From Tateyamaria omphalii (lineage in GTDB: Bacteria > Pseudomonadota > Alphaproteobacteria > Rhodobacterales > Rhodobacteraceae), in contig NZ_CP019312.1 in the NCBI RefSeq assembly GCF_001969365.1, positions 2,418,001 through 2,482,000 of the forward strand: a stretch of 64,000 nucleotides of DNA, read 5' to 3'. The position numbers were made by a program, and so were the translations under genes. The notes under the pieces were generated by a model. That model saw nothing but the letters and a program-made list of their open reading frames with translations. It searched no databases and was not told the origin of the DNA. Shown in pieces: positions 9,243 through 62,608 of this stretch. Position 1 is the first letter of the stretch, and each line of letters begins with the position of its first letter.

Positions 9243-9282
9243 TGTGCACAGGTTGTGCACGCCTTGTGTACGGGATGTGCAC
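9243..9282. repeat. Four TGTGCAC motifs at exact 11-bp period (array 1)
   Basis: TGTGCAC, TGTGCAC, TGTGTAC and TGTGCAC start at 9243, 9254, 9265 and 9276, each separated by 4 nt. The array lies between the 3' ends of two convergent transcripts. A closely related array is at 62569-62608. See findings. Confidence 0.85.
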
Positions 9283-9287
9283 CGGCA

Positions 9288-9324
9288 GATTCAGCGATTC
9301 AGCCATATAAACAAACGCTGAATC
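9288..9324. repeat. Inverted repeat GATTCAGCG ... CGCTGAATC
   Basis: A 9-bp perfect inverted repeat (9288-9296 and 9316-9324) with a partial third copy, GATTCAGC, at 9296-9303. It sits immediately beside the GTGCAC array and just after the moaE 3' end, so it may form a bidirectional hairpin between the convergent genes. Confidence 0.6.
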
Positions 9325-9355
9325 ACCGAACGCTGCGACACCCCCGTGCATCCGG

Positions 9356-9796
9356 TCACCACCGCGTCAGCGCGTCCTCATCCTCGTCCCGCGCCGCGAC
9401 CCATTCGGCCCCGTCTGTGGTGATCTCTCGCTTCCAGAAAGGCGCCCGCGACTTGAGGTAATCCATCAAAAACTCCGCCGCCTCGAACGCGTCCTTGCGG
9501 TGCCGCGCGGCGGTGGCGACCATCATGATCATCTCTCCGACCTCCAGCCGCCCATGCCGGTGAATGACCAGCGCATCCTCCAGCGACCAGCGGGTCACGG
9601 CCTCGCTTGCGATGTCGGTCAGCGCACTTTCAGTCATGCCGGGATAATGCTCGATCTCCATTGCCTGCAGCCCGCCATCCACGTCCCGGACAATGCCCGT
9701 GAACGTCACAACAGCGCCAGACACGGCTCGCCCTTCGGCAAAGGCTGCCGCTTCGGCGCCAAAGTCAAAAGCGGCATCCTGCACAGCGACCCGCAT
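9356..9796 (-). CDS. moaE: Molybdopterin synthase catalytic subunit
   Basis: 146-aa MoaE, the large subunit that converts precursor Z (cPMP) to molybdopterin with sulfur carried by MoaD. Typical segments are GAVVTFTGIVRD (residues 27-38), IHRHGRLEVGE around 80-90, and the Lys-containing LKSRAPFWKRE near the C-terminus. It lies 4 bp downstream of moaD, as expected for subunits of one heterotetramer. Confidence 0.95.
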   Translation of the reverse strand: MRVAVQDAAFDFGAEAAAFAEGRAVSGAVVTFTGIVRDVDGGLQAMEIEHYPGMTESALTDIASEAVTRWSLEDALVIHRHGRLEVGEMIMMVATAARHRKDAFEAAEFLMDYLKSRAPFWKREITTDGAEWVAARDEDEDALTRW

Positions 9797-9800
9797 GGGT

Positions 9801-10055
9801 CTAACCTCCTGTCATGGGTGGGAAAAATGCCACTTCTCGCACGCCTGACAACGGCGCATCGAAGTCGGTCAATTGCTGATCGACGGCTACGCGCAGCGCC
9901 GAGATGTCGGCAAAGGCGGCCTCATAGCGCTCTTCCTTGCCGCGCAGCTCATCCACCAGATCCATGACCGTCGCAGCTTGCGTGTCGACCGCCTCGCGCG
10001 GGATGCCGATCCGTTCGCGGACCCAGGCGAAATAAAGCACGTCCATGGTTGTCAC
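9801..10055 (-). CDS. moaD: Molybdopterin synthase sulfur carrier subunit
   Basis: 84-aa ubiquitin-fold protein ending in the required Gly-Gly (PPMTGG), whose C-terminus is adenylated and thiocarboxylated before sulfur transfer in MoaE. The start is either the GTG at 10055, which overlaps the pgsA stop as GTGA, or the ATG at 10046. Both leave the domain intact, and I prefer GTG for the coupling. Confidence 0.92.
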   Translation of the reverse strand: MTTMDVLYFAWVRERIGIPREAVDTQAATVMDLVDELRGKEERYEAAFADISALRVAVDQQLTDFDAPLSGVREVAFFPPMTGG

Positions 10056-10711
10056 CCTTTCAGATACGGCATGGCCTTACGGAAGTAATCCCACCCGGTG
10101 ATAATGGTAAGGGCCGCTGCGATCCACAGCAACCAAAGGCCTATACGCCCCGACCAGTCGGCCCCGGCCAGCTTCCACCACAGCCCGAGATGATCGGGCG
10201 CCTCCCCATTCAGGATCGCGTTCACCGTCGCCTCATCCATCCCCCAGATGGACATGCCGAAGTAATGTTCGAAGACGCCTTGCGAAAACAGGACCGCGAT
10301 GGCGATCATTTGCAAAGTTGTCTTCCATTTCGCGAGGTTAGTGACCTTCAGCGTCCCCGCCGTGTCTCCCAGAAACTCCCGCAGACCCGAGACAAAAATC
10401 TCTCGAAACAAGATCATAGTCGCAGGCAGCACCAGCCACGGCGACCAGCTGGAAAAGCCGATGATGACCATCAGCGCGATCACCACCATCGCCTTGTCCG
10501 CGATGGGGTCGAGCATGGTGCCGATCTTGGTCTGCTGTCCCCACGCGCGGGCAAGATAGCCGTCGAACCAGTCGGTGATGGCCGCGCCCACAAACAGGAT
10601 CACGGCAAGCATATCCGCATACGGCCGCGTGAAGTAAAGGAACATGACCGCCACCAGCGGGGCCGCGATCAGGCGCAGGGTCGTGAGAACGTTGGGTACA
10701 TTCCAAATCAT
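10052..10711 (-). CDS. pgsA: CDP-diacylglycerol-glycerol-3-phosphate 3-phosphatidyltransferase
   Basis: 219-aa membrane enzyme making phosphatidylglycerophosphate. The CDP-alcohol phosphotransferase signature DG-x2-AR-x8-G-x3-D-x3-D is complete (DGYLARAWGQQ then GTMLDPIADK, about residues 50-73). Several hydrophobic helices flank it. The stop overlaps the moaD start. It follows uvrC by 57 bp, the uvrC-pgsA order common in proteobacteria. Confidence 0.95.
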   Translation of the reverse strand: MIWNVPNVLTTLRLIAAPLVAVMFLYFTRPYADMLAVILFVGAAITDWFDGYLARAWGQQTKIGTMLDPIADKAMVVIALMVIIGFSSWSPWLVLPATMILFREIFVSGLREFLGDTAGTLKVTNLAKWKTTLQMIAIAVLFSQGVFEHYFGMSIWGMDEATVNAILNGEAPDHLGLWWKLAGADWSGRIGLWLLWIAAALTIITGWDYFRKAMPYLKG

Positions 10712-10768
10712 GCCGTACCTCTAGCGCGTCCCATGCACAGCCGGAAGAGGCTGCGCGACACCGCCCCC

Positions 10769-12655
10769 CTACTGGTCGTGGAAAAAGTCATAGACCTTCT
10801 GCGCCAGCCCCTCGGACACCCCGTCCACCGCCTTGAGATCCGCCAGGTTTGCGCGCGCCACAGCCTTGGCGGACCCGAAATGCGCCAGCAGCGCACGCTT
10901 GCGCGACGCGCCCACGCCCGGAATGTCGTCGAGCGGGTTTTTCATGTTGGATTTCGCGCGCTTGGCTCGGTGGGTTCCGATGGCAAAGCGGTGCGCCTCG
11001 TCCCGCATACGCTGCACGAAGTAGAGGACCGGATCGTTGTGGCGCAGGGCAAAGGGGCGCTTGCCGGTGCGGTGGAACTCTTCCTTGCCCGCATCCCGGT
11101 CTACGCCCTTGGCGACGCCCACCATAGGGATATCTTCAACCCCGTGTTCGCGCATGATCTCGGCCACGGCACTCACCTGCCCGGCCCCGCCGTCGATCAG
11201 CAGCAGGTCGGGCCACATGCCTTTCTCGCGGTCGGGATCTTCGGACAGCAGCCGTTTGAACCGGCGGTGCAGCACTTCCTTCATCATGCCGAAATCGTCG
11301 CCCGGGGTCAGGTCATCGCCCTTGATGTTGAACTTGCGGTAGCTGTTTTTCATGAACCCGTCGGGCCCCGCGACGATCATGGCGCCCACGGCGTTGGTGC
11401 CCTGAATGTGCGAGTTGTCGTAGACCTCGATCCGGTCGGGGGCCTCGGGCAATTCGAACGCCTCCGCCAGACCGCGCAGCAGCTTGGCCTGTGTTGCGCT
11501 CTCGGCCATCTTGCGGGCCAGGCTCTCGCGCGCATTGCGCAGGGCACTGTCCACCAACTCCGCCTTTTCGCCGCGCTGGGGCACAAGCAGTTCGACCTTG
11601 CGGCCCAGCTTCTGGCTGAGCGCCTCAGTCATCAGGTCGGGGTTCTCGATCTCGTTCGACAGGATCAACTGCCGCGGCGGCTCCTTGGTGTCATAGAACT
11701 GGCCCAAAAACGCCTCGAGCACCTCGGCCGCGTCCACGTCGGCGCCCACACGGGGATAGAAGTCGCGGTTGCCCCAGTTCTGGTTGGCACGGATGAAAAA
11801 CACCTGCACACAGGCCTGTCCCTGTTCCATGTGCAGGGCGACGATATCGGCCTCGGTCACGCCGCGGGGGTTGATGCCCTGGGCTGTCTGCACCTGCGTC
11901 ATGGCACGGATACGGTCGCGCAGGGCGGCGGCCCGCTCGAACTCCATCTCTTCTGACGCTTGCTGCATCTGCCCGGCCAGCTTGGCCTGAATGTCGGTGC
12001 TCTTGCCGGTCAGGAAGCGTTCAGCATCCTTGACCGATTGGGCGTAATCCGCCTCGGAAATCAGTCCGACGCACGGGCCCGAGCACCGCTTGATCTGGTA
12101 CAGCAAGCACGGCCTTGTGCGGCTGTCGAACATGGAATCGGTGCAGTTACGAAGTAGAAAGACTTTCTGGAGTTGATTGAGCGTGCGGTTCACGGCCCCC
12201 GCGCTGGCAAACGGCCCGTAATAGGCACCCTTTTGTTTTTTTGCACCGCGGTGCTTTTTGATCTGTGGAAATGCGTGATCGCCGGTCACGAGAATATTGG
12301 GAAAGGATTTGTCGTCGCGCAGGAGGACGTTGAACTTGGGTTTGAGCTGCTTGATCAGGTTCTGTTCAAGCAGCAGTGCCTCGGTCTCGGTCCTTGTGGT
12401 GAGGAACATCATCGACGCCGTCATCGAGATCATGCGGGCGATGCGCCCGGAATGCCCCGAGGGACGCGCATAGTTCGATACCCTCGCGCGCAGGTTGCGG
12501 GCCTTGCCCACGTAAAGCACGCGGCTTTCGCGATCGAGCATGCGGTAAACACCGGGCGAGCTGTCGAGTGTCTTCAGATATCCCTGAATGACATCATGCC
12601 CAACGGGCACGGGCTGCTCAATCTGAGGCTGTTCTGATGGGTCCTGTTTCGCCAT
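10769..12655 (-). CDS. uvrC: Excinuclease ABC subunit C
   Basis: 628-aa nucleotide excision repair endonuclease that makes both incisions. Order of domains: GIY-YIG nuclease (about residues 34-110, with SPGVYRML and [13 protein letters not shown]), UVR domain near 215-250, RNase-H-like nuclease near 400-540 ([24 protein letters not shown]), and a C-terminal helix-hairpin-helix pair ([20 protein letters not shown]). Full length. A 16-bp palindrome lies 39 bp upstream of its ATG. Confidence 0.97.
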
Positions 12656-12693
12656 GCGATTCGTGCCATTTCACCTGTTTTGGCTGCACTGAT

Positions 12694-12709
12694 TTGAACA
12701 CGTGTTCAA
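12694..12709. promoter_or_regulatory. 16-bp perfect palindrome TTGAACACGTGTTCAA upstream of uvrC
   Basis: Perfect dyad located 39 bp before the uvrC start, in the position expected for an operator. It is an inverted repeat of GAACAC, not the GTTC-N7-GTTC direct repeat of alphaproteobacterial LexA. A TetR-like dimeric repressor site is one possibility. Confidence 0.5.
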
Positions 12710-12731
12710 GCAATCATACATCCACCGAAGC

Positions 12732-12740
12732 TGTGGATAA
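12732..12740 (-). other. DnaA-box match (TTATCCACA on minus strand)
   Basis: A perfect single 9-mer in the 289-bp gap between uvrC and the SDR gene. Isolated boxes occur by chance and no origin features surround it. The rest of the gap is AT-richer and shows no supported gene. Confidence 0.3.
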
Positions 12741-12944
12741 GTGTGCGGGTAACTTCTGGGTGTCGGGAATTTTCTGTTGTTTCTTGGGCGCTTCCTGAGT
12801 TTGCCTATTTTTTGTGCACTTAAGCAAGCTACTGTTTTTGCTTGTCTTTTTGTTGCGATCCGGGCAAGTCACTGAAAACAAACGCGTTTTAGTAACAGAA
12901 TTGTAACGAAGATTAACGCGGTGCAAAACTCACCTTACGTCATA

Positions 12945-13724
12945 TTATTCCACGCCGATCACGTCGGGCGTTTCCCAAGCCAGATGCTGCCCACCGTCCA
13001 CACAGAGCAATTGTCCCGTCACGCCGGGCGCGTCGAGAAAATAGCCCAAAGCACCGACAATATCCGATGGGTTTGAACCGCGGCCCAGCACGGTTGCCGC
13101 GCGCTGCTTGGCGAAGTGTTCCGCACTTTGCCGTCCCCCTTGCAATGTCGGGCCAGGCCCGATGGCATTGACACGGATCGCAGGCGTCAGCGCCCGCGCG
13201 CTGGTCTGGGTCAGCGCCCACAGCCCCATCTTTGCCAGCGTATAGGTCATGAATTCAGGGGTGAGCTTGCGCACGCGCTGGTCGACCATGTTCACAATCA
13301 GACCGGGGGCCACGGGTTCGTCCATGTCGTCGCGCGTGGCCTCAAGCCCCTGCGCCGCCATGGCCTGCGTCAGCACAAAGGGCGCGCGCAGGTTGCTTTC
13401 CATATGCCGGTCCCAGCTGGTGCGCGTGGCTGTCTCGACCGCATCATATTCAAAGATGGAGGCGTTGTTGATCAGGCAGGTGACCGGACCGCCAAGCGCC
13501 TCGGTGGCCTTGCCGAACAGGGCCTGCGTGTCATCCTCGTTCGTCAAGTCCGCCTGCAATGCCACGCCGCACTGCCCTGCGCTCTCGACCTGGGCGACCG
13601 TTTCGCGCGCGCCCACATCGGAGCTGGCATAATGCACCGCCACGTCATAGCCCCGCCCTGCCAAATAGACCGCCATGGCCCGGCCCAAACGGTGCCCCGC
13701 CCCTGTCACAAGTGCGCGCGTCAT
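12945..13724 (-). CDS. SDR oxidoreductase, pteridine-reductase (PTR1/FolM) type
   Basis: 259-aa short-chain dehydrogenase. The cofactor motif is TGAGHRLG with Arg12, as in NADPH-dependent pteridine reductases, not the classical TGxxxGxG. The catalytic segment reads NMVDQ ... YTLAK, with Asp148 in place of the usual Ser plus Tyr161 and Lys165, the D-Y-K arrangement typical of PTR1/FolM. A role in reducing dihydropterins is therefore plausible. The start at 13724 follows a strong GAGGAGG ribosome-binding site; the frame is open further upstream but overlaps the antiporter end. Confidence 0.85.
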   Translation of the reverse strand: MTRALVTGAGHRLGRAMAVYLAGRGYDVAVHYASSDVGARETVAQVESAGQCGVALQADLTNEDDTQALFGKATEALGGPVTCLINNASIFEYDAVETATRTSWDRHMESNLRAPFVLTQAMAAQGLEATRDDMDEPVAPGLIVNMVDQRVRKLTPEFMTYTLAKMGLWALTQTSARALTPAIRVNAIGPGPTLQGGRQSAEHFAKQRAATVLGRGSNPSDIVGALGYFLDAPGVTGQLLCVDGGQHLAWETPDVIGVE

Positions 13725-13747
13725 CGCACCCTCCTCGTTTATTCTGA

Positions 13748-14710
13748 TTAGATTAGTACGATTGCCAGATAGGTCAGATAGAGAGCGGTCAAGATCACAC
13801 CCCATACGCGCGTGATATCACGGCGCATGTAGACAAATGGCAGCAACAGGAGAGACGACCCGAGCATGACCCACAGATCGAATTTCAGGAACGAAGGGTC
13901 GACCGGGATCGGACCGACAAAGCTGGCGATACCGATGATGGCCAGCAGATTGAACATGTTCGACCCGATCACGTTGCCCAAGGCTACATCGGCCTGACGG
14001 CGCAGGGCCGCCATCACGGTTGTCGCCAGCTCCGGCAGCGACGTGCCGACGGCCACAAGCGTCAGGCCAATGACCGTGTCGCTGACACCGTACATCTTGG
14101 CGATGATGGTCGCGTTGTCGACCAGCAGGTCCGCGCCGAGTGGCAGGCCGATCAGGCCCAGCACCAAAAAGATGGCGATGCGCCAGCCGGGCAGGTCGGG
14201 GTCCACGCCCTCGATCTCTTCCTCGTCTTCGGCCACATCCGGGCCTGCGGCACGGTGGCCCTTGGCCTCGCGCGCGGCGTCCCCCAGCACGAGGCTGAGC
14301 GCAAAGAGCAGGACGATCGCCGCAATCCAGTCAAAGACGCCGCGAAAGGCCAGCGCGATGAACAGGATCGACGCGGCAATCATGAAATTGAACGTCTTTT
14401 TCGTCTCGCATTCGGACGTGTGCATGGTGGCCAGCAAGGCCGGAATGCCAAGCACCAAAAGGATGTTGGCGGTGTTCGACCCGACGACATTGCCGATGGC
14501 AATGCCGGGTGCATCATCCAGAACCGCCTGGATCGCGATCAACAATTCGGGGGCGGATGTCCCGAAGGCGACGATCGTCAGGCTGACGATCAGGGCGGGC
14601 ACGCCCAGCCGTAGGGACAGGTTCACCGCGCCCTTGACCAGCGAGTCCCCCGCCAGCAGCAGGATCAACAGGCCCAAACCGCTGAGCAGCCACGGCATTG
14701 CAGCAGCCAT
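13748..14710 (-). CDS. Calcium/sodium antiporter, CaCA family (YrbG-like)
   Basis: 320-aa polytopic inner-membrane cation exchanger with the two inverted alpha repeats of the family: FGTSAPELLIAI plus GNVVGSNTANILL in the first half and GTSLPELATTV plus GNVIGSNMFNLL in the second. An acidic cytoplasmic loop (DVAEDEEEIEGVD, near residue 170) separates the halves. The ATG at 14710 overlaps the TGA of the small CxC protein gene upstream (TGATG). The frame is open 9 codons further, but that start lies inside the small gene. Confidence 0.9.
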   Translation of the reverse strand: MAAAMPWLLSGLGLLILLLAGDSLVKGAVNLSLRLGVPALIVSLTIVAFGTSAPELLIAIQAVLDDAPGIAIGNVVGSNTANILLVLGIPALLATMHTSECETKKTFNFMIAASILFIALAFRGVFDWIAAIVLLFALSLVLGDAAREAKGHRAAGPDVAEDEEEIEGVDPDLPGWRIAIFLVLGLIGLPLGADLLVDNATIIAKMYGVSDTVIGLTLVAVGTSLPELATTVMAALRRQADVALGNVIGSNMFNLLAIIGIASFVGPIPVDPSFLKFDLWVMLGSSLLLLPFVYMRRDITRVWGVILTALYLTYLAIVLI

Positions 14711-14871
14711 CAGCTGCCACCCCGTCCACAAGAACACTTGCCCTTGCCAATCCTATAGCGCCCGCAGGCACATTTGGCCGACGCCAAACGCTTGCCCCCG
14801 ATCCAGTGCAACTTGCCAAACACAGCCAGCACCGCAATGAAAGCGAGGAACAGCAGGACAATTTTGGACAT
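14710..14871 (-). CDS. 53-aa membrane-anchored protein with two CxC motifs
   Basis: A small protein starting MSKIVLLFLAFIAVLAVF, i.e. one N-terminal membrane helix (residues 4-20), then a basic tail with paired cysteine motifs KCACGRYR and KCSCGRG (residues 33-51). Four cysteines in CxC-x9-CxC spacing suggest metal binding; this is inference. Its stop overlaps the antiporter start and its start lies 6 bp after the S49 peptidase stop (alternative start 3 bp upstream at 14874), so it sits inside one operon. Confidence 0.65.
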   Translation of the reverse strand: MSKIVLLFLAFIAVLAVFGKLHWIGGKRLASAKCACGRYRIGKGKCSCGRGGS

Positions 14872-14877
14872 CATGGA

Positions 14878-15675
14878 TTACAGTCCAAATCGCGCATAAG
14901 CGGCGCGTTCTTCGATTGTGGTCACCGCATCATCCAGCAGCTGTGCACCCAGGCGCGAGAAGAACGGTTTCTTCACGCCGTAACGGCGGAACTGCACCTT
15001 GTCGCCGAACCGGTCCTGCATCATGGGTTTCAGATGGCCGATGCCGTCGATCAGGCCAAGCGCCTTCGCCTTTTCTGCCAGCCACACCTCGCCCGTAAAC
15101 AACTCGGTTTCGGTGTCGAGCTTGCCCGACCGTCGCGCCTGAACGTGGTCAATAAAATTGGTGTGGATGTCGTCCAGAAGCCCTTTGAGCCGTTCCACAT
15201 CCTCGGGCTTTTCCGGCCTGAAGGGATCGAGCATGCTCTTGGATTTGCCCGCGGTATAGACACGGCGTTCAACCCCTTGGCGCGTCATCAGCTCATGCGC
15301 GCCAAAACTGGCAGAGATGACGCCGATGGACCCGATGACCGAAGACGGGTCCGCATAGATCTCGTCCGCTGCGGCCGCCAGCCAGTAGCCGCCGGATGCG
15401 GCGACGTCCTCGACAAAGGCGATCACAGGGATGTCCTTTTCTTCGGCCAGACGCCGGATGCGGCTGCCGATCAGCGAGGATTGCACCGGGCTGCCGCCGG
15501 GCGAGTTCACCTCGAGCGCGACGGCGGCGGGCTTGCCGCGGCTGAACGCCTTGTCGATGGCGCTTGCCAAAGCGCGGTCATTCAACGCGCCGCGCGTGCC
15601 GCCTGCGATGACCCCTTGCAGCCGCACGATGGCGACGGTGGGGTCGGATTTCATGAAGGGGATCCAGCGTTTCAT
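14878..15675 (-). CDS. S49-family serine peptidase (SppA-like)
   Basis: 265-aa single-domain S49 peptidase. The catalytic Ser lies in DVAASGGYWLA (Ser94) and the general-base Lys in AGKSKSMLDPF (Lys146), with the LEVNSPGG oxyanion segment around residue 54. No signal peptide or membrane helix is visible, so it is likely cytoplasmic or peripheral. The start at 15675 has only a close-spaced GAGG; a TTG start at 15735 would add a hydrophobic 20-residue leader (LLCSAALFCAG) and cannot be excluded. That choice matters for localisation. Confidence 0.85.
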   Translation of the reverse strand: MKRWIPFMKSDPTVAIVRLQGVIAGGTRGALNDRALASAIDKAFSRGKPAAVALEVNSPGGSPVQSSLIGSRIRRLAEEKDIPVIAFVEDVAASGGYWLAAAADEIYADPSSVIGSIGVISASFGAHELMTRQGVERRVYTAGKSKSMLDPFRPEKPEDVERLKGLLDDIHTNFIDHVQARRSGKLDTETELFTGEVWLAEKAKALGLIDGIGHLKPMMQDRFGDKVQFRRYGVKKPFFSRLGAQLLDDAVTTIEERAAYARFGL

Positions 15676-15744
15676 CCTCGCCCATGTAGAATGCGCCCCC
15701 GCACAGAACAAGGCCGCACTGCAAAGGAGTTTCAAGCCGTTACG

Positions 15745-16506
15745 TTATTGCCGAATGCGCCAGCCCGTCTTGAAAATCCACCAGACCGCCCCCAAGCACG
15801 CCGCCGTAAAGAGCGCGATAGCGGCAAGCGATGTGCCGATGGGCACGTCCGCCAGACCAAAGAAGGCCCAGCGGAAGCCCGAGATCAGATAGACCACAGG
15901 ATTGAACATCGAGATCGTCTGCCAGACCGGCGGCAGCATCGAGATGGAGTAGAAAGAGCCACCTAGGAAAACAAGCGGCGTCACGATCAGGAGCGGCACC
16001 AGCTGCAACTGTTCAAAGTTGCCCGCCCAGATGCCGAGGATAAATCCGAAAAGCGCAAAGCTGACACAGGTCAGCACGAGGAAGGCGATCATGGCCATCG
16101 GATTCTGGATCTGGAGGTCGACGAAGAAGAAGGACGTCACCAGGATGATAATCCCGATAAACAGTGCTTTGGTTGCGGCCGCCCCCACATAACCCATGAC
16201 GATTTCCAGGAAGTTCACCGGCGCCGACAGAAGTTCATAGATCGTGCCGATGAATTTGGGAAAGTAGATACCAAAGGACGCGTTGGAGATGGCTTGCGTC
16301 ATCACCGTCAGCATGATGAGCCCCGGCACGATGAACGCGCCGTAGCTGACCCCCTCGACCTGGTCGATGCGGCTGCCAATGGCGGCGCCGAAGACCACGA
16401 AGTAAAGCGATGTGGACAGCACGGGCGAGATGAGCGATTGCGCCATTGTGCGGAAGAACCGCGCCATTTCAAAGAGATAGATGGCGCGGATGGCAGACCA
16501 GTTCAT
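15745..16506 (-). CDS. ABC-2 type exporter permease
   Basis: 253-aa membrane protein with six predicted helices and the ABC-2 pattern near the end ([29 protein letters not shown]). It resembles YadH/NodJ-type permeases. It overlaps the ATPase gene start-to-stop by 4 bp, so the two form one exporter. The cargo is unknown. Confidence 0.88.
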
Positions 16507-54297: not shown

Positions 54298-54794
54298 GGC
54301 TGCTCAGGCGACCGCTCTGCGATCATGGCCGAGAGGATCTCGGCCATGAACTTTGCCTGATGACCGGGTGTCATTCCGCCGATTCCGACCCGATTGCCCA
54401 AGCGCCACCACAGGCCCGGGCGCCAGGCACGACCGTCGGAATTGCTAAGGCGCAGCAAAAAGCCGTTTGATGGTTTGAACGCGAACATGCCGCGATCAAT
54501 CGAATGGATGTCGGCGGTACGCGCAACCACCTGGCCCGAACTGTCGCGCAGCTCTTCGGGTGTCAGTTCCAAGGTCAGCGCCGTCGCGCGGCGCATCTTT
54601 TCCGCAATCCAGAGTGCCCCGCCGCCAAGGACCAACAGGAAAAGCTGCCAGCCAATCTCTGGCGGGCGCACGATGCCCACATAGATCACCATAAGCGACA
54701 GGACCCATAACGATCCGATCCCCAGGATACGTCGCCCTTGCGACGCGTTGATCGTGGCGATGACCTCGCCCTCTTTGAAATCCAGACCTTGCAT
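54294..54794 (-). CDS. Hypothetical membrane protein
   Basis: 166-aa protein with two hydrophobic helices in the first third (LGIGSLWVLSLMVIYVGIV and WQLFLLVLGGGALWIAE) and a soluble part resembling PH-like domains in small membrane proteins (LELTPEELRDSSGQVVA). Function unknown. Separated by 40 bp from the downstream catabolic operon's last gene on the same strand. Confidence 0.7.
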   Translation of the reverse strand: MQGLDFKEGEVIATINASQGRRILGIGSLWVLSLMVIYVGIVRPPEIGWQLFLLVLGGGALWIAEKMRRATALTLELTPEELRDSSGQVVARTADIHSIDRGMFAFKPSNGFLLRLSNSDGRAWRPGLWWRLGNRVGIGGMTPGHQAKFMAEILSAMIAERSPEQP

Positions 54795-54834
54795 GGCCCG
54801 CCCTTAGCTTGGGGGCTGCGCACGGGCAAGGGGG

Positions 54835-55779
54835 TCAGCGCCGGACAATGACCTCTGCCCCCGGTGCTTCGGGCTCATCATCGACCATTTGGGCGGGGAA
54901 ATCGGGCGCGGTCACATCGAGGCCAGTGGCCTCTTCCAACCGCTTGATGATGTTGGGCGACAGCTCACGCGGGCCAAAGCGCGCGATGGCGTCGTTGAAC
55001 AGGTTGATCAGCAGCGGATTGAGGTCAAGTGGCACGCCCGCCCGGTCGGCCACGTCCTGAAACAGACCGATGTCCTTGGCCACGAGGTCCATGGTGAAGG
55101 AAATATCGCGTGACCCGTTCAGGATCACCTGGCTTTCGGTTTCATGTACGAAAGAGGTGCCGGAACTGATCGCCATCGCCTCGTACGCGACGCCCAGATC
55201 CATGCCGGCGCCCTTGGCCACCGTCAGCGCCTCTGCGCAACTGACCAGGTTGGCGGTGGCAAGGAAGTTGGTAAGCACCTTGAGCACCGACGCGCTGCCC
55301 AGATCGCCGGTGTGCAGGACGCGCCGCCCCATCGTGGTCAGCAGCGGCAGGATACGTTCGAAGGTCGGGCGGTCGCATCCCGCAAAGATGCTGATGTTAC
55401 CGGTGTCGGCCCGGTGGCAGCCACCGGAGACCGGGCAATCGACGGCGGCGCCACCAGCTGCAATGACCTGGGCGCCGATGCGTTTGACCTCGGCCTCGTC
55501 CGTGGTCGACATCTCCATCCAGATCTTGCCAGAACCGACATGAGGCAGCATCTCATCCATGACCGCGGCGGAGGCTGCGGGGCTGGGCAGGCATGTGATC
55601 ACGGCGTCGCAGCTTTGCATCAGCGCGGCTGGCGATTGCCCGTCGCGCGCACCATCTGCAACCTTGGCGGCCACAAAATCCGCGTTCAGATCATGCACCG
55701 AAACATCATGGCCGTTGCGGATCAGGCTGCCGGACAGCTTGCCACCCACGTTTCCCAGACCGATAAACCCGATTTTCAT
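54835..55779 (-). CDS. 3-hydroxyisobutyrate-dehydrogenase-family oxidoreductase
   Basis: 314-aa beta-hydroxyacid dehydrogenase. It has the N-terminal Rossmann motif KIGFIGLGNVGGKLSGSL, the substrate segment CPVSGGCHRADTG (near 125) and the catalytic Lys in SVLKVLTNFLATAN (near 175). Start at 55779 follows AGGAG with 7-nt spacing; an ATG two codons upstream is too close to it. The substrate is unknown; it lies last in an operon with dipeptidase-like, uronate-dehydrogenase-like and flavin enzymes. Confidence 0.88.
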   Translation of the reverse strand: MKIGFIGLGNVGGKLSGSLIRNGHDVSVHDLNADFVAAKVADGARDGQSPAALMQSCDAVITCLPSPAASAAVMDEMLPHVGSGKIWMEMSTTDEAEVKRIGAQVIAAGGAAVDCPVSGGCHRADTGNISIFAGCDRPTFERILPLLTTMGRRVLHTGDLGSASVLKVLTNFLATANLVSCAEALTVAKGAGMDLGVAYEAMAISSGTSFVHETESQVILNGSRDISFTMDLVAKDIGLFQDVADRAGVPLDLNPLLINLFNDAIARFGPRELSPNIIKRLEEATGLDVTAPDFPAQMVDDEPEAPGAEVIVRR

Positions 55780-55842
55780 GGCCATTCTCCTCTGCGCCTT
55801 TCGGATCAAGGGATGGCGATTGCCCGGCGCTGTCCGTCTTGT

Positions 55843-56817
55843 TTACGACGCAGGGCCAAAATTCTCGGCATAAAAACGATACCAGTTGCGGCCCATGATG
55901 CCTGCCACCTCGTCTTCGGACATGCCGGTTGCGCGCAGCCCGGTTTCGATGTTGCCGAAATCGCGATTGTCGCGGAACCAGGCGGGCTGCGGTGGAAATC
56001 CGGGGTTGGCGGCAGATCCTTCGCCGTAGTCGATCTCCTTGGCCCAGCGGCCCACACGCATCCACTCGACCACACTGTCCGGCTGGTCCTGACACAGATC
56101 AGACCCGATACCGATCTTGTCAGTGCCGTACCGCTCCGCCGTCCGCGCCACGGCCTCACAAAAGGATTGCAAGGTGCAGTGCGATCCGTCCTTGAGGTGG
56201 TGCGGATAGAGCGAAAAGCCCAGCATACCCCCGTTCGAGGTCACGGCCCGGATCACGTCATCGCGCTTGTTCCGCAGCGCCGGATGCCAGTCATGCGGGT
56301 TGGCGTGTGTGATCGCGATGGGGCGTTCGGAAATGTCCGCTGCCTCAATCGTCGAGCGGTCAGCGGAATGGCTCATGTCCACGACCAGTCCCACACGGTT
56401 CATCTCCTTGATCACCTGCTTGCCCATGCGGGTGATGCCGGTGTCTTCGGCCTCGTAACACCCCGTCGCAAGCAGCGACTGGTTGTTGTAGGTGAGCTGC
56501 ATGAAGCGCGCGCCCAGGCTGTGCACAATCTCGACCAGGCCGATGTCATCCTCGATGGGGCTGGGGTTCTGAAAACCGAAGAAAATCGCTGTCTTGCCCG
56601 CGGCCCGCGCCCGGTCGATGTCGCTGGCCCAAAGCCCCTTGGTGATGAGGTCGGGGTAGAGTTCAAACCAGCGGTTCCACGCCTCGAAATTCAGTACCGT
56701 TTCGCGAAAATTCTCGTGATACGCGATGGTGACATGCACCGCGTCCACCTGCCCTTCGCGCATCTGACGAAAGATCTTTTCCGACCAGTTGCAGTACTGG
56801 AGATTGTCGATGCGCAT
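55843..56817 (-). CDS. Membrane-dipeptidase-family (renal dipeptidase-like) hydrolase lacking the HxD motif
   Basis: 324-aa TIM-barrel amidohydrolase relative. It keeps VVDMSHSADRS and PIAITHANPHDW (two metal His), IGIGSDL near the C-terminus and NWYRFYAE. However, the first-strand H-x-D metal motif is absent; the start reads MRIDNLQYCNW. Such variants occur near dimethylglycine/sarcosine or related catabolic genes in other bacteria, from memory of family members. A simple dipeptidase role is therefore doubtful. It is 4 bp downstream of the uronate-dehydrogenase-like gene. Confidence 0.8.
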   Translation of the reverse strand: MRIDNLQYCNWSEKIFRQMREGQVDAVHVTIAYHENFRETVLNFEAWNRWFELYPDLITKGLWASDIDRARAAGKTAIFFGFQNPSPIEDDIGLVEIVHSLGARFMQLTYNNQSLLATGCYEAEDTGITRMGKQVIKEMNRVGLVVDMSHSADRSTIEAADISERPIAITHANPHDWHPALRNKRDDVIRAVTSNGGMLGFSLYPHHLKDGSHCTLQSFCEAVARTAERYGTDKIGIGSDLCQDQPDSVVEWMRVGRWAKEIDYGEGSAANPGFPPQPAWFRDNRDFGNIETGLRATGMSEDEVAGIMGRNWYRFYAENFGPAS

Positions 56818-56821
56818 GGCC

Positions 56822-57661
56822 TTAACCCTGGCCCGTATCGTCCTCATCAAGGTTCAGCGCCATCATCGCGCTTCGCCCGATGGGTGTGCTGGCGAAGGGA
56901 CCGCCGTGGCAGAAATTGCCTGGATCCTGCGGATCCAGAACACCCGCCTCGGCATAGATCTGTTCCGCGAATTGTTCCGCATTGTCCTTGGGCCGGTAGC
57001 CGAGGTGCCGCGCACCGGAGTTGTCGACCGGGGCACGGTCGTTGTTGGACACGCCATAGATGATGGAAAATCCAGCGATGGGCGTGTCGATGGCCCGTTC
57101 GACCAGATGGATCATGTCATCATAGCTCAGCCACGATCCCACGGCCCGCGGGTTGGTGACATTGGCGCAGGACAGGATGCGCAGGCACACGGCTTCGATC
57201 CCCTCCTTGTCCCAGTACATGCGTGCGAGGTCTTCGGTAAAACACTTGGCGAGGCCATAGAACCCGTCTGGACGATGGGCGGCGTCAATGCCGATGGCGT
57301 CGGTCTTTGGGTGCATACCGACCGCGTGGATGGATGAGGCATAGACGATGCGCCGCGTGCCGTGGCGCCGGGCCGCCTCCCAGATGTTGTAGGAGCCCAC
57401 GAAATTCGGGCCAAGCAGTGTCTCGAACGGGGCCTCGTCCACGAAGGCGCCGAAATGCACAACCATGTCAGCGCCTTTGACCACCGCCTCCATCGCTTCA
57501 AAGTCGGCCAGATCGGCCTGTACGTATGTCTCGTTCGGCAAGGGCGTGTCGATGCCGTCGGCGATGTCGGTGGACACCAATGTGTCACACATCTTTGCCA
57601 ACGGCGCGCGCAAGTACGATCCCAGTCGACCAGCAGCGCCGGTCAATACGAGTTTCTTCAT
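56822..57661 (-). CDS. NAD-dependent epimerase/dehydratase, uronate-dehydrogenase-like
   Basis: 279-aa extended SDR with LTGAAGRLGSYLR (NAD-binding, residues 5-17), VVHFGAFVDEAPFE, and the active-site YGLAKCFTED (Tyr and Lys four apart). The overall text resembles uronate dehydrogenases, which oxidise galacturonate or glucuronate, but other sugar or lactone substrates are possible. It follows the flavin oxidoreductase by 10 bp. Confidence 0.83.
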   Translation of the reverse strand: MKKLVLTGAAGRLGSYLRAPLAKMCDTLVSTDIADGIDTPLPNETYVQADLADFEAMEAVVKGADMVVHFGAFVDEAPFETLLGPNFVGSYNIWEAARRHGTRRIVYASSIHAVGMHPKTDAIGIDAAHRPDGFYGLAKCFTEDLARMYWDKEGIEAVCLRILSCANVTNPRAVGSWLSYDDMIHLVERAIDTPIAGFSIIYGVSNNDRAPVDNSGARHLGYRPKDNAEQFAEQIYAEAGVLDPQDPGNFCHGGPFASTPIGRSAMMALNLDEDDTGQG

Positions 57662-57671
57662 GTCAGGTCCT

Positions 57672-58880
57672 TCAGATCACTGCTTTTTCAAGGATGGGTC
57701 GGTCCGTCACCAGACGTTCATAGGCAAAGGGCGACAGATCAAGGCTGCGGAATGCGCCGTAGGTCAACCATTCTGCGGTCCCGCGTCCCATGGCCGGAGA
57801 CTGTTGCAACCCGTGGCCGGAAAACCCGTTGAGGAAGATGAAATTCGCGACCTCCGTATGCGGGCCCAGGATGGCATTGTGGTCAAATGTGTTCATGGCG
57901 TAGTGCCCAGCCCACTCGCTGGTGACCTTGATCGCCTCGAACTGCGGGATGCGCGTGGCAAGGATCGGCCAGACGTGGTTTTCCCAAATGCTGTGATCCA
58001 TGACGAAGTCGTCGTAATCAACGGCGGGGTCGATGTCGGAATGTCCCCCGGCCTGATATGTGCCACCTCCGTTTTCGCGCACATGCACGCCCGACGGGTC
58101 GATGGTCAGCGGCAGGTCGCGATCAAGCGGCTGTTCGGCCTTGAACACCCATGAATAGCGCTTGCGCGGCTCGACCGGCACGTCAATGCCTGCCATCTGC
58201 GCCGTGCGCGCAGCCCGCGGGCCCGTTGCGTTGACGATCTGACCGCAGGCGATGACCTCGCCACTGGCGAGCGTCACGCTTTCGATGCGGGTGCCTGCGG
58301 GATTGCGCGTCATGGCGACCACTTCGTTCTCGATATACTCGACCCCGCGTTCCCGGGACTGGCGGCGCCACCAGTCAAAAACTGCCGCACCGTCCCAATA
58401 CCCCTCGTCCACGGTGTTGATCGACCCAAGCACAATGTCGTCGACATTATAGAACGGATAAGCCGCCTTGATCTGCTCCGGCGTCATCAGTTGCGTCGCC
58501 GCACCAGCGGCATGTTGCAGATGGATGTTCTGGCGCAACGTTTCGGCGAAGGCGTCGGTGTCAGCCAGATACATGTAGCCAAAGCTGCGAATGCCAAGCT
58601 CGGGCACGCGGTCATCACCACCCATGTAACTCCTGATGTTCTTGACGAAATCGGCTGCGAACTGGCTGATGCGGACGTTCAGCTCGGTCGAGAACTGTTG
58701 CCGCATGCAGCTGTTTGTGTGCGCCGTGGAGCATGCAGAGTAGGTCGGGTCGCGCTCTATCACCAAGACCCGGCCATCGAAGTCCGGAGTGTCGGTCAGA
58801 AACCATGCTGTTGAGGCGCCCATGATGGCGCCCCCGACGATGATGACATCGTAGTTTGTATGTTGCGGTGCCTGCGCCAC
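57672..58880 (-). CDS. FAD-dependent oxidoreductase (DAO/glycine-oxidase family)
   Basis: 402-aa flavoenzyme. Its FAD-binding motif DVIIVGGAIMGASTAWFL lies at the N-terminus, and the C-terminal DAO pattern is FNHNAILGP-like (TFDHNAILGPHTEVANFIFLNGF cut here as DHNAILGP and NGFSGHGLQQSP). It probably oxidises an amine or amino acid such as an N-methylated compound; that is inference. The GTG at 58880 is chosen because GGGGG precedes it; the frame is open to an ATG at 58979 with no family similarity. First gene of a four-gene operon, divergent from nasT. Confidence 0.82.
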   Translation of the reverse strand: MAQAPQHTNYDVIIVGGAIMGASTAWFLTDTPDFDGRVLVIERDPTYSACSTAHTNSCMRQQFSTELNVRISQFAADFVKNIRSYMGGDDRVPELGIRSFGYMYLADTDAFAETLRQNIHLQHAAGAATQLMTPEQIKAAYPFYNVDDIVLGSINTVDEGYWDGAAVFDWWRRQSRERGVEYIENEVVAMTRNPAGTRIESVTLASGEVIACGQIVNATGPRAARTAQMAGIDVPVEPRKRYSWVFKAEQPLDRDLPLTIDPSGVHVRENGGGTYQAGGHSDIDPAVDYDDFVMDHSIWENHVWPILATRIPQFEAIKVTSEWAGHYAMNTFDHNAILGPHTEVANFIFLNGFSGHGLQQSPAMGRGTAEWLTYGAFRSLDLSPFAYERLVTDRPILEKAVI

Positions 58881-59092
58881 CTTCGCCCCCGTGCCATTGG
58901 TTGAACGGTGCAGACTGTGCGGCGGAATGCTGAGCCGCGCCAGTGCTTTGTTTGCTCTGTGCTGGAATTTTGTGCGCAATGCTCAACCGTTGGGACGCAA
59001 ACTGTGTGCAATGCAACATGAGGCGGCAGCCCGTGCGTCGCGGATGGATCACGCGCCGCCCATCGCGCACCACGTCACCCGTGACTGAAGAA

Positions 59093-59665
59093 ATGAAAAT
59101 CGCGGTAATTGAACCGGACCCGGACCGCGCGCGGGATATCATCGACGCGCTGAAGGAAGGGGGCTGGAACGACGTCGTTGTTTTGGGGGATGTGACGGGG
59201 CTTGCGCGCAAGCTGGCGGCCCTCGACCCGGACCTTGTGCTGATCGACCTGGCCAATCCGTCGCGCGATGCGTTGGAGCAGGTCAGCGTGGCCTCCGAGG
59301 CGCAAAGTCGACCTGTGGCGATGTTCGTTGACCGCTCGGATGACGAGATGACGCAGGCCGCGGTGGCGGCTGGCCTGTCGGCTTACGTAGTAGGCGAATT
59401 ACAGCCCGACCGGATCAAGCCGGTGCTACAGACCGCCATCGCCCGCTTCCAGATGATGAGCCAGATGCGCAACGAGCTTGAGGCCGCAAAGCAGGCGCTC
59501 GCGGACCGCAAAACCGTGGACCGCGCCAAGGGCATGATCATGCGCGCCAAGGGTGTGGGCGAGGAAGAGGCCTATGCCCTGCTGCGCAAGACAGCAATGT
59601 CGCAGAACCGCAAGGTGATCGAGGTGGCACAGGCACTGCTGACCGCATCGGATCTGCTTACATGA
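59093..59665 (+). CDS. nasT: NasT-type ANTAR response regulator
   Basis: 190-aa RNA-binding antiterminator. The N-terminal receiver-like domain (MKIAVIEPDPDRARDI) is followed by a coiled helix and the C-terminal ANTAR domain (AKQALADRKTVDRAKGMIMR, then EEEAYALLRKTAMSQNRKVIEVAQALL). ANTAR proteins bind paired hexaloop hairpins in mRNA leaders; such hairpins are present 1.3 kb downstream before nrtA. A GTG four codons upstream is an alternative start. Overlaps nasS by 4 bp. Confidence 0.93.
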   Translation: MKIAVIEPDPDRARDIIDALKEGGWNDVVVLGDVTGLARKLAALDPDLVLIDLANPSRDALEQVSVASEAQSRPVAMFVDRSDDEMTQAAVAAGLSAYVVGELQPDRIKPVLQTAIARFQMMSQMRNELEAAKQALADRKTVDRAKGMIMRAKGVGEEEAYALLRKTAMSQNRKVIEVAQALLTASDLLT

Positions 59666-60840
59666 GTACCACGCGCCTGAATTGCGGCTACGTGCCCCTG
59701 GTCGACAGCGCCCCATTGATCGTTGCGCAAGAATTGAATTTTGCCGCCGATGAGGGGCTGTCGCTGAACCTGCTGCGCCAGCCGTCCTGGGCCGCGCTGC
59801 GCGACCTGCTGGCGCTCGGGCATCTGGATGTCGCGCATATGCTGGCGCCGATGCCCATCGCAATGTCGCTTGGGCTAAGCGGGCCTATGGCGCGGATTGA
59901 TGCGCTGATGGTGCTTTCGGTGAATGGAACGGTCATCGGGGTTTCGAACGAGATGGCCGACGCGATGCGCGCCAAGGGGTGGCCGGGTGGATTTGCTGCG
60001 CCGCAAGAGACGGCTGGCCCATTGCTGTCTGCCCTCGACCGGCCGCTGCGCGTGGGTGTGCCCTTTCCCTATTCCATGCACCGGCTGCTGTTTGAATACT
60101 GGATCGGTCATGCCGGTCTGGTCGATCCGTCCACCCTGCACATCATCACGACGCCGCCGCCGCTGATGGCGGATGCCGTCGCCTCGAACGAGATTGACGT
60201 GTTCTGCGTGGGCGAGCCTTGGGGGTCTGTGGCGGTTGGCAATGATGTGGGCGAGCTGATCCTGCCCGGCGCTGCGATCTGGGCCCATGCCCCGGAAAAG
60301 GTTCTGGCCGCGCGGCACGCTTGGGTTGAGGACAACCCGAGCGTTGTTGGCGCGCTAATGCGGGCCGTTGCGCGGGCAGCGGCGTGGTTGGACACCCCCA
60401 AAAACCGCCCCCTCGCCATCGAAATCCTGGCCCGCAGCGCGCATCTGGACTTGCCGCATGCTGCGCTGGACCACGCGCTGATGGGCCGCTTTGCCACGCA
60501 ATTTGGCGCCGCCCCGGTGGATGTGCCCGGCTTCCTGCGCTTTCACGACCGGGCGGCGAACTTTCCTTGGCGCAGTCAAGCCGCCTGGATCGGGGCCGAG
60601 ATTGCGCGCCTGGCCGGCATCAATCGCGACCACGCCATAGACATGGCTCAACGGGCTATGCGTCCCGATTGCTACCGCAGGCACCTGGGCCCCATCGGCG
60701 TCGACATGCCTGGCGCATCCGCCAAAATCGAGGGCGCCCTGACCCACCCCATGGCCGTGGCGTCGACGCGGGGGGAGATGATTTTGGGGCCGGATGCTTT
60801 TTTTGATGGCGAAACTTTTGATTTCAGCCCGTCTGAGTGA
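59662..60840 (+). CDS. nasS: NasS-type nitrate/nitrite sensor, cytoplasmic
   Basis: 392-aa protein related to the NrtA/CmpA solute-binding family but without a signal peptide (MSTTRLNCGYVPLVDSAPLIV), as expected for NasS. In known systems NasS holds NasT inactive until nitrate or nitrite binds. Family text includes LLRQPSWAALRDLL, VGVPFPYSMHRLLFEYWI and VGEPWGSVAVGNDVG. Coupled to nasT by an ATGA overlap. Confidence 0.92.
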   Translation: MSTTRLNCGYVPLVDSAPLIVAQELNFAADEGLSLNLLRQPSWAALRDLLALGHLDVAHMLAPMPIAMSLGLSGPMARIDALMVLSVNGTVIGVSNEMADAMRAKGWPGGFAAPQETAGPLLSALDRPLRVGVPFPYSMHRLLFEYWIGHAGLVDPSTLHIITTPPPLMADAVASNEIDVFCVGEPWGSVAVGNDVGELILPGAAIWAHAPEKVLAARHAWVEDNPSVVGALMRAVARAAAWLDTPKNRPLAIEILARSAHLDLPHAALDHALMGRFATQFGAAPVDVPGFLRFHDRAANFPWRSQAAWIGAEIARLAGINRDHAIDMAQRAMRPDCYRRHLGPIGVDMPGASAKIEGALTHPMAVASTRGEMILGPDAFFDGETFDFSPSE

Positions 60841-60939
60841 TTAGTTTTTGAGCAGATGCTGCATCGCAGCAGGATTCCACGTCCCAACGCAACTTTCCTG
60901 TTGTTTCTCGACGGAATCGCCCGCTAGTCTGAGATCAAC

Positions 60940-60999
60940 GAAGCAAAGTTGCTTCTCTCTGCCTCCACGTTGGGGGCTCTATCAAGAGCAAAGTCGCTC
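60940..60999 (+). promoter_or_regulatory. ANTAR (NasT) target: two AAAGUU/C hexaloop hairpins
   Basis: P1: stem GAAGC/GCTTC around loop AAAGTT (60940-60955). P2: stem GAGC/GCTC around loop AAAGTC (60986-60999). Both loops are six bases with A at position 1 and G at position 4, the known ANTAR recognition rule. They sit in the nrtA leader, upstream of a terminator that shares the P2 3' arm. Confidence 0.85.
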
Positions 61000-61053
61000 G
61001 TTCCTAATGCGTACACCTCCTCCCGTGCGCACCGTGGAACGGGCGGCTTTTTT
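60993..61053 (+). terminator. Leader terminator mutually exclusive with ANTAR hairpin P2
   Basis: 60993-61004 (GTCGCTCGTTCC) pairs with 61036-61047 (GGAACGGGCGGC) over 12 bp with two G-U pairs, followed by TTTTTT (61048-61053). The 5' arm contains the last three bases of the P2 loop and its whole 3' arm, so P2 and the terminator cannot coexist. nrtA starts 20 bp after the T run. Confidence 0.8.
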
Positions 61054-61073
61054 GTTAAAAAAGGACCGACAGG

Positions 61074-62444
61074 ATGACCCGTCTCTTTACATTCGCAGGT
61101 GCCATGGCAGCCCTGCTTGGCACGGCGGCCCACGCCGAGCTGCTGGATCTGGAAAAGGATGAGCTGAAATTTGGCTTCATCAAGCTGACCGATATGGCCC
61201 CCTTGGCCATCGCCTACGAGAATGGCTATTTCGAAGACGAGGGCCTTTTCGTCACGCTGGAAGCGCAGGCGAACTGGAAAGTGCTGCTGGACGGCGTGAT
61301 CGACGGGCAGCTGGACGGCGCGCACATGCTGGCGGGTCAGCCGCTGGCCGCCACCATCGGTTACGGCACCGAGGCGCATATCATCACGCCCTTTTCCATG
61401 GACCTCAACGGCAACGGCATCACCGTTTCCAATGAAATCTGGGAAGAGATGAAGCCCCACGTGCCGTTGATGGACGATGGTCGTCCGCAGCACCCGATCA
61501 GCGCCGAAGCCCTGGCACCCGTTGTCGAAGACTACAAAGACCAAGGCCTGCCTTTCAACATGGGCATGGTGTTCCCAGTCTCCACGCACAACTACGAAAT
61601 CCGCTACTGGCTGGCCGCCGGTGGTCTGGAACCCGGCTATTACAGCCCCGAAAACATCACCGGCCAAATCGGTGCAGACGTGCTGCTGAGCGTGACCCCG
61701 CCCCCACAGATGCCCGCAACCATGGAAGCGGGCACAATATATGGTTACGCGGTGGGTGAGCCGTGGAACCAGCAGGCTGTGTTCAAAGGCATCGGCGTGC
61801 CGGTCATCACCGACTACGACATGTGGAAGAACAACCCCGAGAAGGTGTTTGGCCTGAACGCGGAGTTTGCCGAGGAAAACCCCAACACCACGTTGGCCAT
61901 CACGAAGGCGCTGATCCGTGCGGCCATCTGGCTGGACGAGAACGACAACGCCAACCGCGAAGCCGCGGTCGAGATCCTGTCCCGTTCGGAATATGTCGGC
62001 GCGGATTACGAAGTGATCGCCAACTCGATGACCGGCTTCTTCGAATTCGAAAAGGGCGACCGCCGCCCGGCGCCGGACTTCAACGTGTTCTTCCGCTACA
62101 ATGCGACATACCCGTTCTATTCCGACGCCATCTGGTACCTGACGCAAATGCGCCGCTGGGGTCAGATTGCCGAAGCCAAGTCGGACCAGTGGTATTTCGA
62201 CACCGCAGCCGAGGTCTACAAGCCCGCGATCTATCTGGAAGCCGCGCGTATGCTGGTGGACGAAGGTCTGGCCAACGAAGCCGACTTCCCCTGGGACAGC
62301 GACGGGTTCAAGGCACCGACGCCTGCCGCCGACATCATCGACGGCATCGCCTATGACGGCAAAGCGCCCAACGCGTATATCGACAGCCTGCCCATCGGTC
62401 TGAAAGGTGAGCAAACCGTCGTCGGCAACGCGGTCGAAGGTTGA
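61074..62444 (+). CDS. Nitrate ABC transporter substrate-binding protein (NrtA-like)
   Basis: 456-aa periplasmic binding protein with signal peptide ([21 protein letters not shown]). It matches the CmpA/NrtA family: [53 protein letters not shown], and [18 protein letters not shown]. Transported ion is nitrate or nitrite by context, since nasST and the ANTAR leader lie directly upstream. Confidence 0.92.
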
Positions 62445-62455
62445 AAGAAATGACG

Positions 62456-62547
62456 GGGTGGGCAGCATTGCCCACCCTACGCTGCCTCGCAGCAAATCTG
62501 CCCCAACGGCGGGGCACCTGCCCAAAAAACAGGCACGCTGCAGTGCC
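62456..62547 (+). repeat. Chain of hairpins in the nrtA-nrtB gap
   Basis: A 9-bp perfect stem, GGGTGGGCA/TGCCCACCC (62456-62477), is followed by GCTGC/GCAGC, TGCCCC/GGGGCA (62499-62516) and GGCAC/GTGCC. None has a T run. They may protect the nrtA 3' end and lower expression of downstream permease genes, or be a dispersed repeat. Confidence 0.55.
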
Positions 62548-62568
62548 GCGAAATACCCTGTCACATCC

Positions 62569-62608
62569 TGTGCACAACCTGTGCACCGAACGTGCACAGC
62601 CCGTACAC
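62569..62608. repeat. Four GTGCAC-type motifs at exact 11-bp period (array 2)
   Basis: TGTGCAC, TGTGCAC, CGTGCAC and CGTACAC start at 62569, 62580, 62591 and 62602; a degenerate CTGTCAC fits the same phase at 62558. Read on the minus strand the units resemble those of the array at 9243-9282, sharing the 17-mer GTGCACAGGTTGTGCAC. Confidence 0.85.

Follow-up and report, generated by a model that had tools for sequence, protein, structure and literature searches.

Phased, polar repeat arrays in Tateyamaria omphalii and other Rhodobacteraceae, and a ribbon-helix-helix protein as their candidate binder

The stretch of Tateyamaria omphalii DNA analysed here (the window: 64,000 nucleotides, C1:2418001-2482000, C1 being a 3.86-Mb contig of a 4.315-Mb genome in 8 contigs) contains two short arrays of a GTGCAC-like unit repeated with an 11-bp period, and they raise the question of what such arrays are, what binds them and what they do. 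The two arrays are given below. For every array, the forward strand is defined as the one in the same sense as the array at the promoter of the ribbon-helix-helix (RHH) protein gene described in the next section.

9244..9282, forward strand minus, GTGYAC strand plus: array 1, four units (GTGCAC/GTGCAC/GTGTAC/GTGCAC) with an 11-bp period
62570..62608, forward strand plus, GTGYAC strand minus: array 2, four units with an 11-bp period

The units start exactly 11 bp apart in both arrays, at 9244 and 9255 (GTGCAC), 9266 (GTGTAC) and 9277 (GTGCAC) in array 1 and at 62570, 62581 and 62592 (GTGCAC) and 62603 (GTACAC) in array 2, which bears out the four units per array and the 11-bp phase read in an initial annotation of the window. 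The 7-mer TGTGCAC proposed there is not strict, since a C precedes units 3 and 4 of array 2. The opposite orientation of the two arrays was read correctly, because GTGCACAGGTTGTGCAC is common to both and lies on the plus strand of array 1 (9244) and on the minus strand of array 2 (62570).

The arrays are real and polar. In the T. omphalii genome, a four-unit pattern with up to 3 mismatches gave 53 forward and 54 reverse matches and a three-unit pattern with up to 1 mismatch gave 62 and 57, against 0 for the backwards-read control pattern in both cases; because the controls give no match, the arrays are not a product of chance. The genome holds at least 32 arrays, so that the initial annotation, which had made further phased arrays in the genome a test of its proposal, was not refuted on this point. 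Among the matches listed (100 of the 107 of the four-unit pattern), all arrays are on C1; the other 7 are three-mismatch matches, and further weak arrays are possible, other contigs included. The exact three-unit matches are likewise all on C1. The 11-bp unit is oriented, with a consensus of about KGTGYAYRGGY. Among 134 units, 84 read GTGCAC, 28 GTGTAC, 21 GTGCAT and 1 CTGCAC; on the GTGYAC strand all but one of the departures from GTGCAC are C-to-T changes, and the spacers there read approximately RGGYK. The oriented three-unit pattern recovers 30 of the 32 arrays on the expected strand and none on the opposite strand. This polarity had been missed in the initial annotation.

We scanned one genome per species across 84,980 species. 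Among the matches listed there were 119 matching stretches, 114 of which carry names of Rhodobacterales (Tateyamaria, Leisingera, Nioella, Paracoccus, Roseovarius, Sulfitobacter, Lentibacter, Jannaschia and others), genera that we take to belong to this order, and the remaining 5 come from metagenome-assembled genomes labelled Planctomycetes (2), Flavobacteriia (2) and Cupriavidus (1). The exact oriented pattern is present in 11 genomes of a family sample of 198, and the control pattern in none. Ten pattern matches on viral contigs were rejected because they look like unrelated short tandem repeats.

A ribbon-helix-helix protein as candidate binder

When the predicted proteins near the arrays were clustered, the gene most often found directly downstream was one that encodes a stand-alone RHH protein. 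Eight such loci were found (T. omphalii, two in Nioella, and one each in Lentibacter, Leisingera, an unclassified Rhodobacteraceae, Roseovarius and Paracoccus); array and gene have the same orientation at all 8, and the array is 72-88 bp from the called start, except for 187 bp once. All 7 intact proteins match PF14384 (BrnA antitoxin) with 46.5-57.9 bits, the cut-off being 26.1. A profile built from these 7 proteins has matches at E ≤ 1e-6 in 71 of the 198 family genomes, including 9 of the 11 array-positive ones, and among 289 class-wide genomes the matches better than 1e-16 are confined to the same family. Ten neighbouring genes scanned from 7 RHH loci gave no match to a BrnT, ParM, ParA, relaxase or initiator family; the order of the genes was read at all 8 loci.

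The upstream regions of the 30 RHH homologues with retrieved loci have a best period of 11 in 23 cases (19 with shuffle p ≤ 0.05) and of 12 in 2, and the cores found there are GTGCAC, ATGCAC, CATGCA, GTCTGG, GTCTTC, GTATGG, GTATGAC and GTACAT. The 11-bp period, whose conservation in relatives was also to be checked, is kept even where the core sequence differs. The core read from the RHH promoter of a genome was then used to predict arrays genome-wide, with control genomes alongside; arrays turned up in 7 of 8 test genomes and in no control. For GTMTGG, arrays were found in 6 of 7 expected genomes (G067, 167 matches; G175, 73; G105, 36; G049, 30; G191, 14; G039, 10), with 0 matches in G052, where they were expected, and in 0 of 5 controls. 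The backwards-read GTMTGG counts are 0 except in G105 (16) and G039 (2), and the count in G105 is probably due to the frequent final G of its spacers. GTATGAC has 35 matches in G071, as expected, and none in 6 controls. In many of the G071 arrays (L379-L408) an inverted unit comes after the direct ones (GTATGAC-TCCGC-GTCATAC), whereas arrays elsewhere have direct units throughout.

Residues of the N-terminal strand of RHH proteins contact bases, and in the alignment of the 30 proteins this strand reads x51-V-x53-x-x55. Covariation was analysed on the 28 proteins with an assigned core, two without a clear core being left out. Among the proteins with R51 and T53, R55 goes with G as core base 1 in 10 of 10, and S, A, A, G or M at position 55 goes with A as core base 1 in most units in 5 of 5 (p = 3.3e-4). 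Core position 4 is T in 9 of the 9 proteins with K51, against 3 of 19 without it (p = 3.2e-5, and p = 4.9e-4 without the five weakest core assignments). As far as these sequence comparisons reach, the phased architecture is common to the family, and the core and the presumed contact residues have shifted in step between genera.

From its position, the prediction of arrays and the covariation, the RHH protein is very probably the binder of the arrays. The arrays would then be chromosomal operator arrays for one small stand-alone BrnA-family RHH protein, and the phasing and known RHH proteins suggest a filament along one face of the DNA, made of dimers that occupy the short cores at intervals of one helical turn. 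Cooperative protein binding along one DNA face had been suggested from the two window arrays, and it gains support from the arrays upstream of RHH genes in many genera and from the covarying presumed contact residues. Since an array lies upstream of its own gene, the RHH protein probably autoregulates. The statement that the arrays are not at a normal promoter position holds for most of them and fails for the array at C1:2929432, which is upstream of the binder gene. In this gene (C1:2929010-2929348; L067:4770-4961 onward) an in-frame TAG stands in place of the conserved first-helix Trp, and the T. omphalii arrays may therefore be unbound: the strain may have lost its RHH protein recently, with the 32 arrays as fresh relics, or the TAG base may be wrong.

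We rejected the idea that the RHH gene came from a phage or a plasmid, because a single query protein (L181) gave no phage match and 4 plasmid matches, 0 of them in Rhodobacteraceae and 0 covering 80%. No solved structure related to the protein was found by sequence. At L139 and L141 the RHH gene and its array are near prfC (release factor 3), to which they lie directly adjacent and divergent in L139, and the upstream sequences of G038, G070 and G073 look alike by eye.

Orientation of the arrays and local strand composition

The forward strand is locally rich in G (positive GC skew) at 31 of the 31 T. omphalii arrays with a non-zero value; one more, at 1617459, was re-oriented by hand and its skew rounds to zero. 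When the arrays are oriented by the sequence pattern alone, the forward skew is positive in 30 of 30. It is also positive at 104 of 120 named loci, a set in which 5 arrays stem from records whose labels name other groups (L087, L108, L116, L168 and L190), and at 38 of 40 arrays in G175, 10 of 12 in G105 and 8 of 8 in G067. G071 has 25 of 26, with 26 loci merged from 30; its single negative, L385, was wrongly oriented by the script, and a later count uses 26 of 26. We rejected a gene-direction artefact as the source of the skew because the skew is present in forward genes and reverse genes, as well as between genes.

In G175, the profile around 20 arrays is one-sided. The mean forward skew is -0.012 over -25 to -5 kb and rises to 0.064 in the 2.5 kb immediately before the array; its highest value, 0.086, falls at +2.5 to +5 kb (19/19), and by +22.5 to +25 kb it is down to 0.010. 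In 17 of the 20 arrays the skew is greater downstream than upstream (Wilcoxon p = 6e-4). In the window, array 2 begins a stretch of reversed skew of about 15 kb (C1:2480620-2496000, extending past the window) with a skew of +0.083, against -0.015 before it and -0.031 after it.

The orientation of the arrays does not follow from the replication arm throughout. The parS sites at 3.304-3.306 Mb suggest the position of the T. omphalii origin, and an arm rule of the KOPS type did not hold, in that the arrays at 72 kb to 1.3 Mb fit the expected arm in 3 of 8 cases (origin at parS, terminus taken as opposite, dif not located). In G175 the orientation alternates along the chromosome, and two arrays 12 kb apart are oppositely oriented with the sign of the skew changing between them. 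Replication arm is not the whole explanation of array orientation; local strand composition predicts it. The initial annotation had proposed looking for a bias towards gene ends, strand and origin, and what came of this is that the flanking genes have no consistent arrangement and the origin position is not predictive throughout, but local strand composition is.

A KOPS- or Chi-like polar motif downstream of the arrays was set aside: the top words in the k-mer tests (GAGC, CGAG and GGAG) look like a general GAG-versus-CTC context effect, and since many words share it, we counted it towards the strand asymmetry. In T. omphalii and G175, no context downstream of the arrays is more strand-biased than GAG versus CTC, whose bias exceeds what base composition explains. 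A gene-conversion-like rise in GC downstream of the arrays is seen at four-fold sites; it is absent from the total GC of T. omphalii, G105, G067 and the named loci, and because it is lacking in total GC outside G175 it was not relied on.

Gene setting and flanks of the arrays

The regions around the two window arrays are listed below, and they agree with the settings reported initially, namely convergent gene ends for array 1 and, for array 2, a position between two genes given there as nrtA and nrtB.

9135..9355: convergent intergenic region with array 1, between an open reading frame on the plus strand (8808-9134) and moaE (PF02391; 9356-9796, minus strand)
62445..62687: intergenic region with array 2, between an NMT1_2-family NrtA-like gene (61074-62444) and a BPD_transp_1 ABC-permease gene (62688-63767), both on the plus strand
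9176..9221, plus strand: 5' flank of array 1 with two copies of TTTATTAACCATCGTTC (9176 and 9194) and CGGTCCGTTAAT (9210), read by eye

We examined 10 kb around each of the 32 T. omphalii arrays with a simple gene predictor, and all 32 arrays are intergenic, with convergent flanking genes in 11 cases, divergent in 7 and tandem in 14. When the named loci are included, 150 of 152 arrays are intergenic (genes predicted by an in-house script), again with no consistent gene arrangement. A promoter or terminator role was rejected because the flanking genes occur in all four arrangements. Some positions recur: an array lies 14-55 bp 3' of a glutamate-synthase-small-subunit-like gene at 6 loci (L071, L080, L098, L132, L176 and L194), a position kept in T. 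omphalii, Leisingera, Lentibacter, Paracoccus, Planktomarina and Histidinibacterium, and 29-52 bp upstream of a chorismate mutase (CM_2) gene at 3 loci (L066, L079 and L091, from T. omphalii, Tateyamaria and Paracoccus).

About half of the T. omphalii arrays have a 5' flank related to CACCGCACGNNNCGTTAACC (loci L045-L076, by eye), and several have the 3' flank GGCGTTAACC followed by GATTC. The words TTAACC and GANTC in these flanks resemble CtrA and CcrM sites. No tRNA was found in the window.

Competing explanations and related systems

What do the arrays do? On balance we favour the reading that RHH-bound polar arrays are the start sites of a one-way DNA transaction. Within it, the skew footprint suggests that a directional process probably starts at each array, as opposed to the array being a passenger; this process would work forward along the downstream DNA, weaken over about 25 kb and, in the course of evolution, enrich the forward strand in G. 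That this process is DNA mobilisation or recombination rather than transcription is a tentative first guess, and the arrays may be transfer-origin-like or recombination sites.

Several points weigh against this reading. Five of the 30 upstream regions have another best period (10, 13 or 15), and in the covariation the residue groups were defined after the alignment had been seen, the genera are related and the cores are partly mixed (for example in G047, G091 and G023). The RHH gene is the commonest recurrent neighbour of the arrays and not the sole one (chorismate mutase at 3 loci, glutamate-synthase-like at 6). Two array-positive genomes, G139 and G147, both fragmented drafts, have no RHH match, and 62 of the 71 RHH-positive genomes lack a GTGCAC-type pattern; arrays of their own core were shown for 7 of these 62 and failed in G052, 8 having been tried. 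In T. omphalii the sole RHH match (E ≤ 1e-6) is the one with the in-frame TAG, and the AlphaFold monomer of the RHH protein has low confidence (pLDDT 58.5). The full asymmetric profile comes from one complete chromosome, G175, and there from 20 of 40 arrays picked for isolation. The upstream side is also skew-positive in T. omphalii, and array 1 is a poor example, with a forward skew of +0.013 over 15 kb downstream.

The best surviving alternative, which we nevertheless consider unlikely, is that the arrays are architectural or regulatory RHH-bound sites without directional function, which were once uniformly oriented to replication, inversions having since moved arrays and leading-strand skew together. 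It accounts for the mostly leading-strand orientation of the T. omphalii arrays flanking the parS/dnaA region and for the joint flipping of local skew and array orientation. It predicts a symmetric skew, however, whereas G175 shows none upstream and a decay downstream, and the opposite G175 arrays with a sign change within 12 kb also speak against it, as does the stretch of reversed skew that starts at array 2, though a single small inversion could produce the latter.

Quite unlikely, in our estimate, is a second alternative, in which the arrays are packaging start sites of gene transfer agents (GTAs): the RHH protein would supply the recognition that GTA small terminases lack, and one-way headful packaging followed by one-strand uptake would leave the fading footprint. 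The sign of the skew and the length over which it fades would fit successive headfuls, and the GTA marker PF13547 is present in 173 of the 198 family genomes. PMC6854486 leaves unexplained what causes the peaks in D. shibae GTA packaging, and what sets GTA packaging start sites is stated as an open question in PMC11841831. On the other hand, RHH and PF13547 are unassociated, with at least 5 of the 71 RHH-positive genomes lacking the marker (G014, G059, G071, G095 and G109) against 25 of 198 overall. G071 combines 35 array matches and positive forward skew with the absence of a PF13547 match, which recent GTA loss could explain, and the PF13547 (GTA_TIM) match of the array-bearing G018 has two in-frame stops (G018:C1:1292170-1293066).

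The arrays could also resemble plasmid transfer origins (oriT) or replication starts, with nicking or priming at the array beginning one-way strand transfer or DNA synthesis, which we regard as improbable. Such an origin is compatible with the one-way fading profile, with a forward strand that is leading-like in GC skew, and with the inverted unit after the direct units in G071. RHH proteins are relaxosome accessory proteins in plasmids, and this was counted in its favour; the lack of a relaxase or initiator family among the 10 genes scanned near RHH genes counts against it.

We see very little prospect for an ordinary family of repetitive extragenic palindromic or miniature inverted-repeat transposable element (REP/MITE) type, spread by strand-preferring transposition. 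Dispersed, intergenic and strand-biased copies are what it would give, and the copies share core, period and in part flanks, but their spacers vary, the core and period are kept at orthologous places where the spacers differ, and the core changes together with a DNA-binding protein. RNA hairpins or terminators, the former raised by the initial annotation, are hardly credible: GTGCAC is self-complementary and TTTT follows many of the T. omphalii arrays, but for 12 of the 32 no gene on the oriented strand reads into the array, 7 have divergent genes on either side, the window has no Rfam match at gathering thresholds, and, since the cores of other genera such as GTCTGG and GTATGG are not self-complementary and the flanking genes have no consistent direction, the hairpin reading is not supported.

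Among the closest known systems are the parC centromeres of plasmids, which are bound by RHH ParR proteins (e.g. R1, with 11-bp repeats). According to PMC9426499, these too pair an RHH protein with direct repeats that are in phase at 10-11 bp in some systems, the repeats lie upstream of the genes of the system itself, and their sequence and spacing have diversified between systems. The combination of an RHH adaptor with phased repeats known from ParMRC/ParABS systems recurs here, the RHH domain being assigned by Pfam only; unlike these systems, the arrays have no ParM or ParA motor among the 10 scanned neighbours, and they are polar, occupy dozens of chromosomal sites per genome and have a composition footprint. 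The BrnT-BrnA system (PF14384) resembles ours in its RHH domain, which is well above the Pfam cut-off, and in an operator array near the promoter; it differs in that no BrnT match was found among the 10 neighbouring genes scanned, and here the operator type is repeated genome-wide.

KOPS, Chi and Ter are polar chromosomal sites whose orientation is informative and whose action is one-way. The arrays are like them in informative orientation and apparent one-way action, and unlike them in being few (dozens) and long, with phased units, a separate recognising protein, sequence turnover between genera and alternating orientation in G175. In mammals, the fast-changing DNA-binding specificity of PRDM9 sets the genomic addresses of a DNA process. 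The RHH protein is unrelated to PRDM9, and the likeness would be one of addressing by a fast-changing specificity, with recombination at the arrays a candidate process.

In its most far-reaching and doubtful form, our proposal is that in Rhodobacteraceae a dedicated, fast-evolving address protein and a few dozen polar start sites might mobilise about 25 kb of flanking DNA in one direction, whether by packaging, transfer or recombination. This would be a bacterial counterpart of hotspots set by PRDM9 and a candidate explanation for the unexplained peaks in D. shibae GTA packaging. A literature search over openly licensed papers found no description of such arrays, and even without the directional part the pairing of protein and arrays would be a regulon-scale system for which no description was found there. 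If the proposal is true, it would offer a test of what sets GTA packaging start sites, a question posed as open in PMC11841831. Many Rhodobacteraceae would then have an undescribed chromosome-wide addressing system made of one protein, a few dozen polar sites and a fading footprint, and they would hold a natural code that links RHH contact residues to DNA bases, in which the protein and its genome-wide sites change together.

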